Assembly: GCA_018266475.1 (NCBI GenBank) | Contig: JAFEAI010000144.1 | Location: 1 to 34,341, forward strand | Length of the DNA stretch: 34,341 nucleotides | Direction: 5' to 3' | DNA from: Bacteroidota bacterium | GTDB lineage: Bacteria > Bacteroidota > Bacteroidia > Flavobacteriales_F > PHOS-HE28 | Shown here: positions 19,104 to 29,524 of the stretch, one piece after another | Layout of the letters: each line of letters begins with the position of its first letter | Position numbering within the stretch: position 1 is the stretch's first letter | Translations under genes and position numbers: made by a program | The notes under the pieces: generated by a model | What the model saw: only the letters and a program-made list of their open reading frames with translations | Databases searched by the model: none | What the model was told of the DNA's origin: nothing

Positions 19104-19178
19104 CGGCAGGGCCGGCCATGTGCGAAGCGGGACCGGCGGGAAGCGGATTTCGTCGATGGTCAATCGAGCATCCGGATC

Positions 19179-19224
19179 ATAAGTGGCCAAATGTGGTTCC
19201 AAATTGCCTGATTTGGCTACTTAT
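19179..19224. repeat. 46-bp palindromic unit, copy A
   Basis: Left arm ATAAGTGGCCAAAT (19179-19192), an 18-bp spacer, then right arm ATTTGGCTACTTAT (19211-19224). The arms are complementary over 14 bp with one G:T pair. The same 14/18/14 geometry occurs in copies B (19673) and C (21137). The last ten spacer bases agree with copy B at nine positions (AAATNGCCTG), and the first five (GTGGT) match copy C read on the other strand. Confidence 0.85.
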
Positions 19225-19672
19225 AGAATGCGAAAAGGAAGCTGTTCCGCGAGTTCTTCCGGTAGGGCCTGATGTACGCATTGGGAGGTACGACCGATCG
19301 GCAGATGGTTGCTGCATAGGCCCGGGTGCGAAGGATGGAGCCGAAGGCCGCTGGCCCCACGGTGGGACCGCATAGCGGACGGGTGGGCTGATGTCTGTGC
19401 CGTCCGACCGATGTACGGCGTTTCGGGGGCTTTTGCCGGAAGGGCGGTGATCGCAGTAGCGAAGGAGGGAGCATGTGGGAAACAGGCCCTCTGGAACACT
19501 TCGGTAAGCGGGCGTTGGCCTGGGAGGCAATGCGGGATGAACATGGCAAATGGGTTCTTCGGCCTTCGGACCGCCCGCGCCCCCCGGAGGGGCGAATAAC
19601 CGGTGTGCTGCTTGTGCAAAGCGGGGCCAATGGCACTTTGGTGCATGCCCAAGTGCAATCCGAACGATCAAC
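19225..19672. other. Apparently non-coding 448-bp interval between palindromes A and B
   Basis: No frame here looks like a protein. The longest minus frame runs from within palindrome B to within palindrome A but is rich in Pro, Arg, Ser and His, as expected of antisense or random GC-rich sequence. The plus frame at 19473-19676 (67 aa) is likewise unconvincing. I see no promoter box, tRNA or strong terminator. Bracketed by two copies of the palindrome, it could be an internally deleted relative of the adjacent ATPase unit or an eroded gene. No sequence similarity to the ATPase gene is visible. Confidence 0.5.
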
Positions 19673-19718
19673 ATAAGTAGCCAAATGATAGCTAAAATAG
19701 CCTGATTTGGCTACTTAT
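19673..19718. repeat. 46-bp palindromic unit, copy B (overlaps ATPase stop)
   Basis: ATAAGTAGCCAAAT (19673-19686), an 18-bp spacer, then ATTTGGCTACTTAT (19705-19718). The arms are perfectly complementary over 14 bp. The right arm contains the TAA stop codon (19715-19717) of the minus-strand ATPase gene, so the gene and the repeat unit are physically joined. Confidence 0.9.
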
Positions 19719-21127
19719 AAATTCTCAAACAAGACCTCCATGGTGAGCTCGTTCTGTACGAGCTGCCTGGCGATGGCATTGCCCGTAACGCCGTAGGTGG
19801 TGATAAAGGTGAGGAGAATGCTTTTCCTGGAGCGGGTCTCCGACCGGAAGCGCCTCACCTTGGCCGCGAGGTCACGTCCGTAGGCGGCGTCGATGGTGAA
19901 CGGGGCGGCGGAAAACTTCATCTCGCAGATGTTCACCACGTTGTCGTCGCGGTCGATCAGCAGGTCCACCTGGGCCCCTGGCCTCCCCTTGGAGACCCAA
20001 GCTCCCTCCATGCTGTGGACGCCTTGGATACCGAGGCCGCGCCTGATCTGTTCAACGTGCTTCATGCAGATGGTCTCAAACGTGAACCCGGACCAGGCCC
20101 GGTTGGATGGCTTGTCCTGCAGCTTGACCCAGTAGGCCCCCCTGGCCGGACGGCTTTCCGCGATGAACTTCAAGTGGAAAAGCGAAAGTTCGTCGCTGAG
20201 CCGGTAAAGCGGATCTTTGGTGCCGGTCCAGGGAGTATACCGTTGGATAAAGCCGGATGCATCGAGTTCCTCGAGCGTTCTGGTCAGTGTGCCGCCGGTG
20301 CGTACCCCGCTCTGGCGTGCGAGCTGGTCGCGGGTCATGCCCTTGCGCATGCGTGCAAGCGTCCGCACGATGCGCTCATGGTTCTCGCTATGGTCGAACA
20401 GGGAGGCGAACACGAGGTTGAACTCGTCGCGCAAGGGACCATCCTTTCGGAAGCACAGGCGGTCGATGGCCTGTGCTGCGCTTTCACCGGGCTGTACCAG
20501 TTGCAGGTAGTAGGGCACGCCGCCAAGGGCCATGTACAGCCGGATGATGTCGTAGCGGGTGAGCTGCACTCCGTTGTGGCGCAGCATCTGCTCGGTTTCC
20601 GCCAGGTTGAACGGTTCCAGCCGCACTTGCCTGGTGATCCGGTTGTGCAGGCCGCCCTTGTCCTTGATGATCTTGCGGACCATATAGGAGGCGGCGGACC
20701 CGCAGATCACCACCAGCAGGTCGTTCCGCTTGCTGGCAAAGGCGTTCCAAAAATTGCTGAAGGCGGGCAGGAAGCGGGATTTCCTGCCGTCGAGCCAGGG
20801 GAACTCATCAATGAAGATGACCTTTTTACGGGTGGACCGGAGCGAGGAGATGTAGGTGCCCAGCTGTTGGAAGGCCTCCAGCCAATCAGAGGGTTCGGGC
20901 AGGTTCTTGCGGTGTGCGGAGAGCGTAAGGTGGAAATTGCGCAGCTGCTCCTTGAGCGTGGCGCGGTGCATTCCGGTGATCTCGAAGCGGATGTGCCCCC
21001 GCAGGATGCTGCGGGCAAGAAAGGTTTTGCCGATGCGCCTGCGGCCCAACAGCACCACCAGTTCGGGGCGCTTGCTCGCCAGTGCCGCGCGCAACGTGGC
21101 GGATTCCCGTGTCCTTCCGATCACCAT
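19715..21127 (-). CDS. AAA ATPase with C-terminal PD-(D/E)XK-like (DUF234-type) domain
   Basis: The 470-aa protein has Walker A GRRRIGKT (residues 28-35), Walker B VIFIDEF (103-109) and a sensor-like VVICGSAAS, typical of the ATPase_2 (archaeal-type STAND/AAA) family. A winged-helix segment (about 265-315, MRKGMTRDQLARQSGVRTGGTLTRTL...) follows. The C-terminal DUF234-like domain carries GAQVDLLI-(X)-NICEMKF: Asp388, Glu402 and Lys404, the D-ExK pattern of PD-(D/E)XK nucleases. This family is common and often multicopy in Bacteroidota and archaea; its job is not established. Translation starts at ATG 21127, 9 bases from palindrome C, and ends inside palindrome B. A longer upstream frame would run through palindrome C and across the oppositely oriented riboswitch. 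Nuclease activity is inferred from the motif only. Confidence 0.85.
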   Translation of the reverse strand: MVIGRTRESATLRAALASKRPELVVLLGRRRIGKTFLARSILRGHIRFEITGMHRATLKEQLRNFHLTLSAHRKNLPEPSDWLEAFQQLGTYISSLRSTRKKVIFIDEFPWLDGRKSRFLPAFSNFWNAFASKRNDLLVVICGSAASYMVRKIIKDKGGLHNRITRQVRLEPFNLAETEQMLRHNGVQLTRYDIIRLYMALGGVPYYLQLVQPGESAAQAIDRLCFRKDGPLRDEFNLVFASLFDHSENHERIVRTLARMRKGMTRDQLARQSGVRTGGTLTRTLEELDASGFIQRYTPWTGTKDPLYRLSDELSLFHLKFIAESRPARGAYWVKLQDKPSNRAWSGFTFETICMKHVEQIRRGLGIQGVHSMEGAWVSKGRPGAQVDLLIDRDDNVVNICEMKFSAAPFTIDAAYGRDLAAKVRRFRSETRSRKSILLTFITTYGVTGNAIARQLVQNELTMEVLFENL

Positions 21128-21136
21128 GCGGTAATT

Positions 21137-21182
21137 ATAAGTAGCCAAAACTAAGCAAACAGGACCACATTTGGCTACATAT
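21137..21182. repeat. 46-bp palindromic unit, copy C (upstream of ATPase start)
   Basis: ATAAGTAGCCAAAA (21137-21150), an 18-bp spacer, then ATTTGGCTACATAT (21169-21182). The arms pair with two mismatches. It lies 9 bp upstream of the ATPase ATG (minus strand), in the position of a promoter or operator. It is AT-rich relative to its surroundings. Confidence 0.85.
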
Positions 21183-21331
21183 AAAATGACGTAGGGGAAC
21201 ATGGGCGGGTTTTCCGGCGGCAGCACCCTGCGGCATTCCGGGGTCGGGCGGGGAACTGGGCCGACCAGCTTCCAGCCACCGGAGGGCTGGGTCTGTCCCG
21301 GGCAACGGCAACACATTTCCCGGCGCGCCCC

Positions 21332-21339
21332 TATCTTTG
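21332..21339 (+). promoter_or_regulatory. -7 box (TATCTTTG) of the B12 operon
   Basis: A perfect TAnnTTTG box lies about 20 bases before the first conserved element of the cobalamin riboswitch, so the transcript starts immediately ahead of the aptamer. Confidence 0.65.
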
Positions 21340-21355
21340 CGCCGCTGATGATCCC

Positions 21356-21530
21356 TGCCTTCACAAGCAGGGTTAAAAGGGAACCGGGTGTGAATCCCGG
21401 GCTTTTCCTGAAGCTGTGAGCCTCACAAGGCCGAACCGGCACCAAGCCACTGTCCGCAAGGATGGGAAGGCGCCGGCGAGGGAGGCGAGCCAGAAGACCT
21501 GTCACCGGCACAAGGGTAGTTTGCTTTCAG
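21356..21530 (+). ncRNA. Cobalamin (B12) riboswitch
   Basis: Conserved blocks of the AdoCbl-type aptamer appear in order: a 5' GGTTAAAAGGGAACCGGGTG, then TGAATCCCGG, then CCACTGTCCGCAAGG, and the B12 box AGCCAGAAGACCTG at 21489-21502. The closing helix is plausibly GCAGGG...CCTG. It lies between a -7 box and the gene at 21633, with about 100 nt of expression platform containing two hairpins: GGTGCA/TGCACC (21548-21566) and GCTGTT/AACAGC (21591-21609). By analogy with other B12 riboswitches, cobalamin binding should reduce expression of the downstream uptake genes. The exact 5' and 3' limits are estimated. Confidence 0.9.
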
Positions 21531-21632: not shown

Positions 21633-22754
21633 ATGAAGTCTCTCTTACGCGCATTTTCAGCAACGGCCCTGCTCGGCACCATCGGTGTGCAGGCCCAAAC
21701 GTTCACCCTGGCCGATGTCCGCTTCTGGACGGGGGCCGGCCCCGACAGCACGGTGCTGGTGGTGGATTTCCATGATGGAACGGAGGATTCCAGCTACGCC
21801 TGGGGATACCTGCACGGGGCAGGGGCCACCGCCGAGGAAATGGTCAATGCCATCGCAGCGGCCGATGCCAACCTTACGGTGGACATCCAAGGCGGCTTTC
21901 TCAACTCGTTGACCTACAACGGTCACGCCGGCATCGGGGGGCAGCCGGATTGGTGGAGCACCTGGAGCGGCACGGACCTGGGCGGCATGCAGATGAACAT
22001 GGGCCTGGCGGAAACACTGTCCAATGGAAGCTGGTTCGGCTGCTCCTACACCGATTTCACCCCCGCGCTGCCGCCCGGCATGCCCTTGGCAGCCATAAAC
22101 CCTGCGGCCTTCACTGCCGGTGATGTGGCCTTCTGGACCGGCAGCGGCGCGCACAGCGCGGTGCTCGTGGTGGATTTCCAGGACGGCAATGGTGCGGCCA
22201 GCTATGCCTGGGGCTTCCACTTCGACGGCACTACCACCGGCGAGGCCATGTTGAACGCAGTGGCCGCTGCCGATCCGCAATTTGCCATGGTGGTGACCTC
22301 CGGGTTCCTCAGTGATATCACTTATGATGGCCATGCCGGGATCGGGGGGCAGCCCGACTGGTGGAGCACGTGGAGCGCTACCAACATGGGCAACTGGACC
22401 ACGAACCTTGGCATCGGGACCGAAGTGGAGGATGGCGGCTTCTTCGGCTGCTCCTACACGGATTTCAATCCCGCATTGCGCCCCGGCGTGCCGGTGGCGG
22501 CTTCCATCCCCACCTTGGTGGCGGAGCGTGCCAACGAAGGCATCCTGGTGTACCCGCAACCGGCCACGGACCTGGTGAACATCCGTTATGCCGCTGCGGC
22601 CGGGGAACCGGTGTTCATCACGGACCTTTCCGGCAAGGTGGTGCGCACGGCCCGCACGGGCGGCTTGCTTTCCGCAGTGGACGTAAGTTCCCTGGCCCCG
22701 GGCCTGTATGTGCTGCAGGTGGGCAGCGTGAAACAGACCATCGTTGTCCAATAA
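21633..22754 (+). CDS. Riboswitch-controlled secreted protein with duplicated domain and T9SS tail
   Basis: The 373-aa protein has a signal peptide, MKSLLRAFSATALLGTIGVQAQ. Two tandem domains of about 135 residues follow (about 23-155 and 162-295). Each opens with an FxxxDVxFWTGxG motif followed by VLVVDFxDG and xSYAWG, continues with GHAGIGGQPDWWSTWS, and ends WFGCSYTDFxPALxPG. About 75 residues of type A T9SS sorting domain close it (GILVYPQPATDLVNIRYAA...GLYVLQVGSVKQTIVVQ). As the first gene after the cobalamin riboswitch, followed by BtuB- and BtuG-like genes, it is probably a cell-surface cobalamin- or corrinoid-capturing protein. That role is inferred from position. I do not know a characterised homologue. 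Trp-rich conserved loops could form the ligand site. Confidence 0.82.
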   Translation: MKSLLRAFSATALLGTIGVQAQTFTLADVRFWTGAGPDSTVLVVDFHDGTEDSSYAWGYLHGAGATAEEMVNAIAAADANLTVDIQGGFLNSLTYNGHAGIGGQPDWWSTWSGTDLGGMQMNMGLAETLSNGSWFGCSYTDFTPALPPGMPLAAINPAAFTAGDVAFWTGSGAHSAVLVVDFQDGNGAASYAWGFHFDGTTTGEAMLNAVAAADPQFAMVVTSGFLSDITYDGHAGIGGQPDWWSTWSATNMGNWTTNLGIGTEVEDGGFFGCSYTDFNPALRPGVPVAASIPTLVAERANEGILVYPQPATDLVNIRYAAAAGEPVFITDLSGKVVRTARTGGLLSAVDVSSLAPGLYVLQVGSVKQTIVVQ

Positions 22755-29442: not shown

Positions 29443-29524
29443 GGGCCTTCGGCTCCGCTCAGGCCTAACTCTCTTTTTTGATCATTGTAATCGATGCAAT
29501 TGGCCTGAGCGGAGCCGAAGGCCC
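29443..29524. repeat. Perfect 23-bp inverted repeat between alkD-like and ogt
   Basis: The arm at 29443-29465 (core CCTTCGGCTCCGCTCAGG) and its exact complement at 29502-29524 flank a 36-nt AT-rich loop containing CTCTTTTTT. A 23-bp hairpin right after the AlkD stop would end transcription. The arms are so perfect that a dispersed REP-like element is also plausible. The right arm ends 18 bp before the ogt ATG. A 12-bp near-copy of part of the arm (CCTGAGCGCAGC, 30075-30086) overlaps the ogt stop codon. Confidence 0.85.

Follow-up and report, generated by a model that had tools for sequence, protein, structure and literature searches.

A palindrome-bracketed gene for an ATPase with a predicted nuclease domain appears to move between Bacteroidota and to insert at the ends of conserved genes

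We analysed a stretch of 34,341 nucleotides from a Bacteroidota bacterium of the PHOS-HE28 lineage (assembly GCA_018266475.1, contig JAFEAI010000144.1, positions 1 to 34,341 of the forward strand; hereafter the window), in which a gene for an AAA+ ATPase, winged-helix and PD-(D/E)XK nuclease protein lies between two copies of a long palindrome. Comparison with homologous loci indicates a mobile, site-specific unit whose sole product is this ATPase-nuclease protein, and the gene seems to move between bacteria that are only distantly related, landing at the ends of essential genes. From these comparisons we lean towards a minimal one-gene, homing-like, site-specific mobile element with palindromes that would serve autoregulation. 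The finding bears on a protein family with more than 8000 catalogued members that is treated as antiviral immunity (PMC12988326), a role for which we found no published test.

Results

The gene and its palindromes in the window

Three near-identical palindromes are present in the window, against none expected from 100 dinucleotide shuffles, which confirms the three copies given in a preliminary description of this sequence. Palindromes B and C bracket the gene, and their placement is likewise as described, C ahead of the start codon and B across the stop codon. The features concerned are the following.

19104 to 21335: segment without counterpart in the congener G427, holding palindromes A, B and C and the gene
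19179 to 19224: palindrome A, an extra copy with one arm mismatch, 448 bp past palindrome B
19225 to 19672: A-B interval, for which no homology with the ATPase or with other loci was found
19673 to 19718: palindrome B, perfect 14-18-14, at the downstream end of the gene, without a TAnnTTTG box; the TAA stop codon (19715-19717) lies inside one arm
19715 to 21127, minus strand: AAA+ ATPase, winged-helix and PD-(D/E)XK nuclease gene, 470 aa, PADLOC PDC-S27, Pfam ATPase_2; ATG at 21127
19916 to 19972, minus strand: PD-(D/E)XK catalytic motif Q386-x-D388...E402-x-K404, invariant in 48 homologues
20804 to 20821, minus strand: Walker B, F105-x-D107-E108, invariant in the same homologues
21023 to 21046, minus strand: Walker A, GRRRIGKT, residues 28-35, seven of eight positions invariant in the same homologues
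21137 to 21182: palindrome C, 9 bp ahead of the ATG, at the gene's upstream end
21146 to 21153, minus strand: TAGTTTTG, matching the Bacteroidota -7 box TAnnTTTG in the right arm of palindrome C, 19 nt ahead of the ATG

The 18-bp spacer earlier attributed to every copy is slightly off, since C matches at 12 of 14 positions in that register and is better fitted by 13-20-13 with one mismatch; the arms of A differ at one position. With up to three mismatches allowed, no further copy was found in the 3.57-Mb genome.

Insertion sites and empty sites in relatives

The mobility that the preliminary description had suggested draws support from relatives, in which empty sites, repeats at the flanks and horizontal transfer are seen, and from gain or loss at the window locus itself. 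Empty sites were clean at tRNA-Ala, der and carB. In Flavobacterium sp. RSP15 (locus L065), the tRNA-Ala gene is interrupted at the anticodon loop by an insertion of 1791 bp together with one 43-bp repeat, the repeated part being the 3' half of the tRNA gene, which is uninterrupted in four genomes. F. solisilvae (L073) carries the unit at the 3' end of der, of which about 33 bp are repeated; der, whose identification is supported by its domains, stands without the unit in nine relatives, and in several the left flanking gene is also adjacent. In another Flavobacterium (L206), the unit follows carB, of which 72-82 bp are repeated; here F. solisilvae provides the empty site. The three insertions measure 1.6-1.8 kb, contain no integrase and are flanked by a repeat, 33-80 bp long, that copies the 3' end of the target gene.

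Flanking direct repeats were detected for 16 of 64 units and in 1 of 74 control windows, with the reservation that related units share insertion events, so that independent insertions are fewer than this fraction suggests. Repeat length ranges from 33 to about 380 bp across units, and one repeat corresponds to a gene 5' end. At L055, the two versions of the repeated gene start differ in nucleotides yet translate identically over about 69 codons, and at L046, 24 of the 38 bases that differ between the repeat copies fall in synonymous codons. Because of these patterns, the duplicated gene ends look like imported, previously selected alleles and not like copies that decayed in place. A 155-bp repeat at L032 was not relied on, as it may be a paralogous secretion-signal domain.

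Only the ATPase gene was found within the unit; there is no second gene and hence no DDE transposase TnsB. No integrase was found inside the units, and the neighbours of the tested tRNA-linked units are housekeeping genes. Unit boundaries, where resolved, mostly fall beyond the palindromes, by tens to about 160 bp. At L047 and L085, additional DNA next to the right palindrome was considered as palindrome-bounded cassettes, but it consists of ordinary genes (one GNAT-like) with no second palindrome, and the idea of a cassette array was therefore dropped.

The same tRNA-Ala slot that holds the L065 unit is occupied in genome G473 by a small GIY-YIG nuclease gene (L149, 2020-2600), with a partial tRNA 3' end at its left and an intact tRNA and terminator at its right. 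This coincidence supports a nuclease-driven route of insertion, and the GIY-YIG gene may represent a second family of nuclease elements that replace gene ends.

At the window locus, the unit is missing in five genomes of the same genus (G411, G416, G418, G426 and G427), and G427 carries 42 bp in place of the 2.2 kb at 19104-21335. G428 has a truncated version with one palindrome and a C-terminal fragment of the gene. Neither a direct repeat nor an ATPase remnant was found in the window flanks or the A-B interval, in agreement with the earlier remark that no target-site duplication is visible, and since the locus lacks a flanking repeat the insertion is probably an older one. The ATPase unit is the immediate upstream neighbour of a Cobalamin riboswitch (21329-21520, plus strand; Rfam RF00174, 112 bits), which sits just ahead of genes for a secreted protein and a TonB-dependent receptor. 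A secreted protein encoded at 21714-22501 contains two tandem repeats, 408 bp apart, with 74-79% DNA identity.

Transfer of the unit between distant hosts

Several units are 92-99% identical in DNA although the rpoB genes of their hosts are only 71-89% identical. ATPase and rpoB identities are 96.8 and 70.7 for L063/L068, 98.6 and 85.6 for L066/L067, and 93.9 and 81.7 for L108/L109, in contrast to syntenic pairs such as L044/L045 (90.7 versus 89.9 for rpoB), which serve as vertical controls. Identity between transferred units ends shortly outside the palindromes. The gene is patchily distributed, being present in 24 of 395 genomes of a phylum sample and in 8 of 399 Flavobacterium genomes.

Palindromes across homologous loci

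An arm-N-arm palindrome was found upstream of the gene at 70 of 78 loci, downstream at 53 and at both ends at 50, compared with 6 of 2063 control windows; five rows (L008, L010, L012, L024 and L029) were stored reversed, which swaps upstream and downstream in at most five rows of these counts. The spacing from CCAAA to TTTGG is 19-20 bp nearly everywhere in the family. Two outcomes had been named as speaking against a mobile unit, namely confinement of the motif to this one locus, and wide occurrence unlinked to ATPase genes without gain or loss. Neither was seen: in the genome and its relatives the motif extends beyond the window locus, is tightly linked to the ATPase gene and goes with clear gain and loss. 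Genomes that carry the gene hold one or two copies of it, and few palindromes were present in the 33 genomes scanned.

Arm sequences differ from locus to locus, yet a given gene has matching arms at its two ends. The arm match is 0.90 between the ends of one locus versus 0.75 between loci, a difference reached in 0 of 5000 permutations. Within the clade of the window the arms have changed in concert at both ends, reading CCGCAG at L031/L032, AAGTGG at L049/L050 and AAGTAG in the window, and the arms differ even between L032 and L049, which are on the same contig. Such end-to-end matching and concerted switching are as expected if each protein reads its own palindromes.

TAnnTTTG is the -7 promoter box of Bacteroidota. 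It occurs in 65 of 70 upstream palindromes and in 15 of 53 downstream ones, and because the box lies within it the upstream palindrome is probably an operator. The preliminary description had posed a mobile unit and operator function as alternatives; both gain support here, the latter from this promoter overlap.

Among distant relatives, an upstream palindrome was seen in Emticicia, Segatella and Butyrivibrio plasmids and in viral contig L199. A PDC-S27 relative with 38-39% identity lies amid head genes of Wolbachia phage WO (L159, L193 and L194), and these loci are without palindromes. Two further ATPase relatives with 26-27% identity (L026 and L028) have tight, near-perfect palindromes downstream, near one gene end (ATTATACTCGAGAGTAT/ATACTCTGGAGTATAAT and ACTTCAAAGTAT/ATACTTTGAAGT), which are perhaps analogous sites of another type. 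Pedobacter orthologues (L081-L092) carry up to three upstream palindromes.

An ATPase fused to a predicted nuclease

The PADLOC PDC-S27 model matched the window protein over its full length (E = 4.3e-183, residues 2-467 of 470), and its Pfam match is ATPase_2/AAA_14. D388, E402-x-K404 and the Walker A and B residues are invariant in the 48 homologues. In the AlphaFold model (pLDDT 91.5), the best Foldseek matches of the ATPase/winged-helix part were the Walker-type ATPase PABY2304 of Pyrococcus abyssi (2qen) and Orc/Cdc6 initiators, which share this fold and, unlike the window protein, have no matched nuclease domain. The C-terminal domain alone matched restriction-type nucleases such as EndoMS and BspD6I, and a profile search against the PDB returned TnsC chains as its sole matches. 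Judged by sequence and modelled structure, the C-terminal domain is a nuclease fold with an intact PD-(D/E)XK motif, which makes the protein a predicted nuclease and bears out the earlier view of a nuclease-like ATPase.

PDC-S27, the family to which the window protein belongs, has been described as a candidate single-gene defence system of an ATPase fused to PD-(D/E)XK, with more than 8000 instances, and experimental validation is said to be pending for most PDCs (PMC12988326). The literature that we found treats the family only as putative defence, and our searches returned no description of the palindrome-gene arrangement; the palindromes, insertion sites and mobility are what the present unit adds.

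Discussion

A proposed homing-like route of insertion

We propose that each palindrome consists of two half-sites about 34 bp apart that would be recognised by the element's own protein. The upstream copy, overlapping the -7 box, could thereby mediate autoregulation, and the downstream copy would mark the far side of the gene. Insertion would be site-specific, at an end (mostly the 3' end) of conserved genes, among them tRNA-Ala, tRNA-Asn, der and carB, and the element would bring with it a copy of the end of its target, by which the target gene stays functional. The most likely route would be homing-like, the nuclease cutting an unoccupied target and recombination copying in the element together with the flanking gene-end copy; the nuclease is thus the presumed driver. 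Since resolved boundaries lie mostly outside the palindromes and one unit lacks the downstream copy, the palindromes are better seen as cognate sites than as element tips.

Homing endonuclease genes comprise GIY-YIG, LAGLIDADG and PD-(D/E)XK types such as I-Ssp6803I. They share with the unit a single nuclease gene, patchiness, conserved targets including tRNA genes, low copy number and horizontal spread. Like them, the unit has a predicted intact nuclease as its only gene and defined targets with empty alleles. Unlike them, it has the AAA+/winged-helix fusion, paired palindromes and an imported copy of the target end, and it lies in no intron or intein. Tn7 TnsC/TnsA also combine an AAA+ ATPase with a restriction-fold nuclease, here predicted, and with site specificity, whereas our unit is one fused protein without a DDE transposase or Tn7-type ends.

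Several observations weigh against a homing-like element. The target gene is restored to a functional state after insertion, so that what shields an occupied site from cutting is not obvious. The carB insertion has no downstream palindrome, from which it follows that this copy is not always needed and may be dispensable. Most distant relatives checked, among them those of Wolbachia phage WO and haloarchaea, have no such palindromes; one haloarchaeal plasmid copy was inspected, from the hardly sampled archaeal half of PDC-S27. The Pedobacter members stand in conserved synteny with no downstream palindrome detected, and may be a domesticated, immobile lineage. Some of the transfers depend on metagenome-assembled contigs; the key empty sites, all in Flavobacterium, are independent of metagenome bins.

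Alternative explanations

The family's catalogued role suggests that the gene is simply an anti-phage defence gene, with palindromes that are only operators, carried by host recombination or other elements into hot spots at tRNA genes and gene ends. The strong PADLOC match, the thousands of members counted as candidate defence (PMC12988326), the -7 box within the upstream palindrome and the relatives borne by plasmids and phages all agree with this account. We nevertheless regard it as rather unlikely, because an operator alone leaves the matching palindrome past the stop codon unexplained, the inserted unit is this gene only, with the same boundaries in several hosts, and distant hosts carry it at the same tRNA gene. 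Alternatively, the unit might be a non-autonomous integrative element on which a tyrosine integrase acts in trans, attaching at the 3' ends of tRNA and other genes. Elements of that kind at tRNA 3' ends show the same direct repeats and restored target gene, yet the unit is small, at 1.6-1.8 kb, with no integrase in or beside those tested, and its repeats vary in length, one of them being a gene 5' end; together with the GIY-YIG nuclease unit in the same tRNA slot, this makes an integrase in trans improbable.

A transposon-like unit with the palindromes as its physical ends, as the preliminary description had raised, would explain why L108/L109 and several more distant pairs lose similarity at the outer edges of the palindromes. 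Empty sites speak against the palindromes as transposon tips, as they place boundaries mostly tens to about 160 bp further out, and with one or two copies per genome and few palindromes genome-wide we consider this account very improbable. The accompanying analogy with RAYT/REP and IS200/IS605 is not supported: in those systems, too, a mobile gene has palindromes to either side, whereas the unit has no HUH/Y1 protein, its palindromes are not dispersed, being too few per genome for REP-like spread, and it inserts at gene ends with long repeats.

Compared with these accounts, the homing-like element remains our preferred reading, and a broader proposal can be attached to it with some reserve. 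The units might form an undescribed class of autonomous one-gene elements, in which an AAA+/winged-helix/PD-(D/E)XK protein reads paired cognate palindromes and inserts its own gene at the ends of essential genes with gene-end replacement; the PDC-S27 genes, counted in thousands, would then be members or descendants. The genomic evidence, at least in Bacteroidota, indicates that the family travels in a minimal mobile unit that has cognate DNA sites of its own. Should the protein drive its own insertion, the mobility mechanism would be new, based on gene-end replacement at family-specific targets (tRNA genes, der and carB), and the reading of defence inventories would change.

Apart from the unit, the window contains a perfect 23-nt inverted repeat with a 36-nt loop at 29443-29524.
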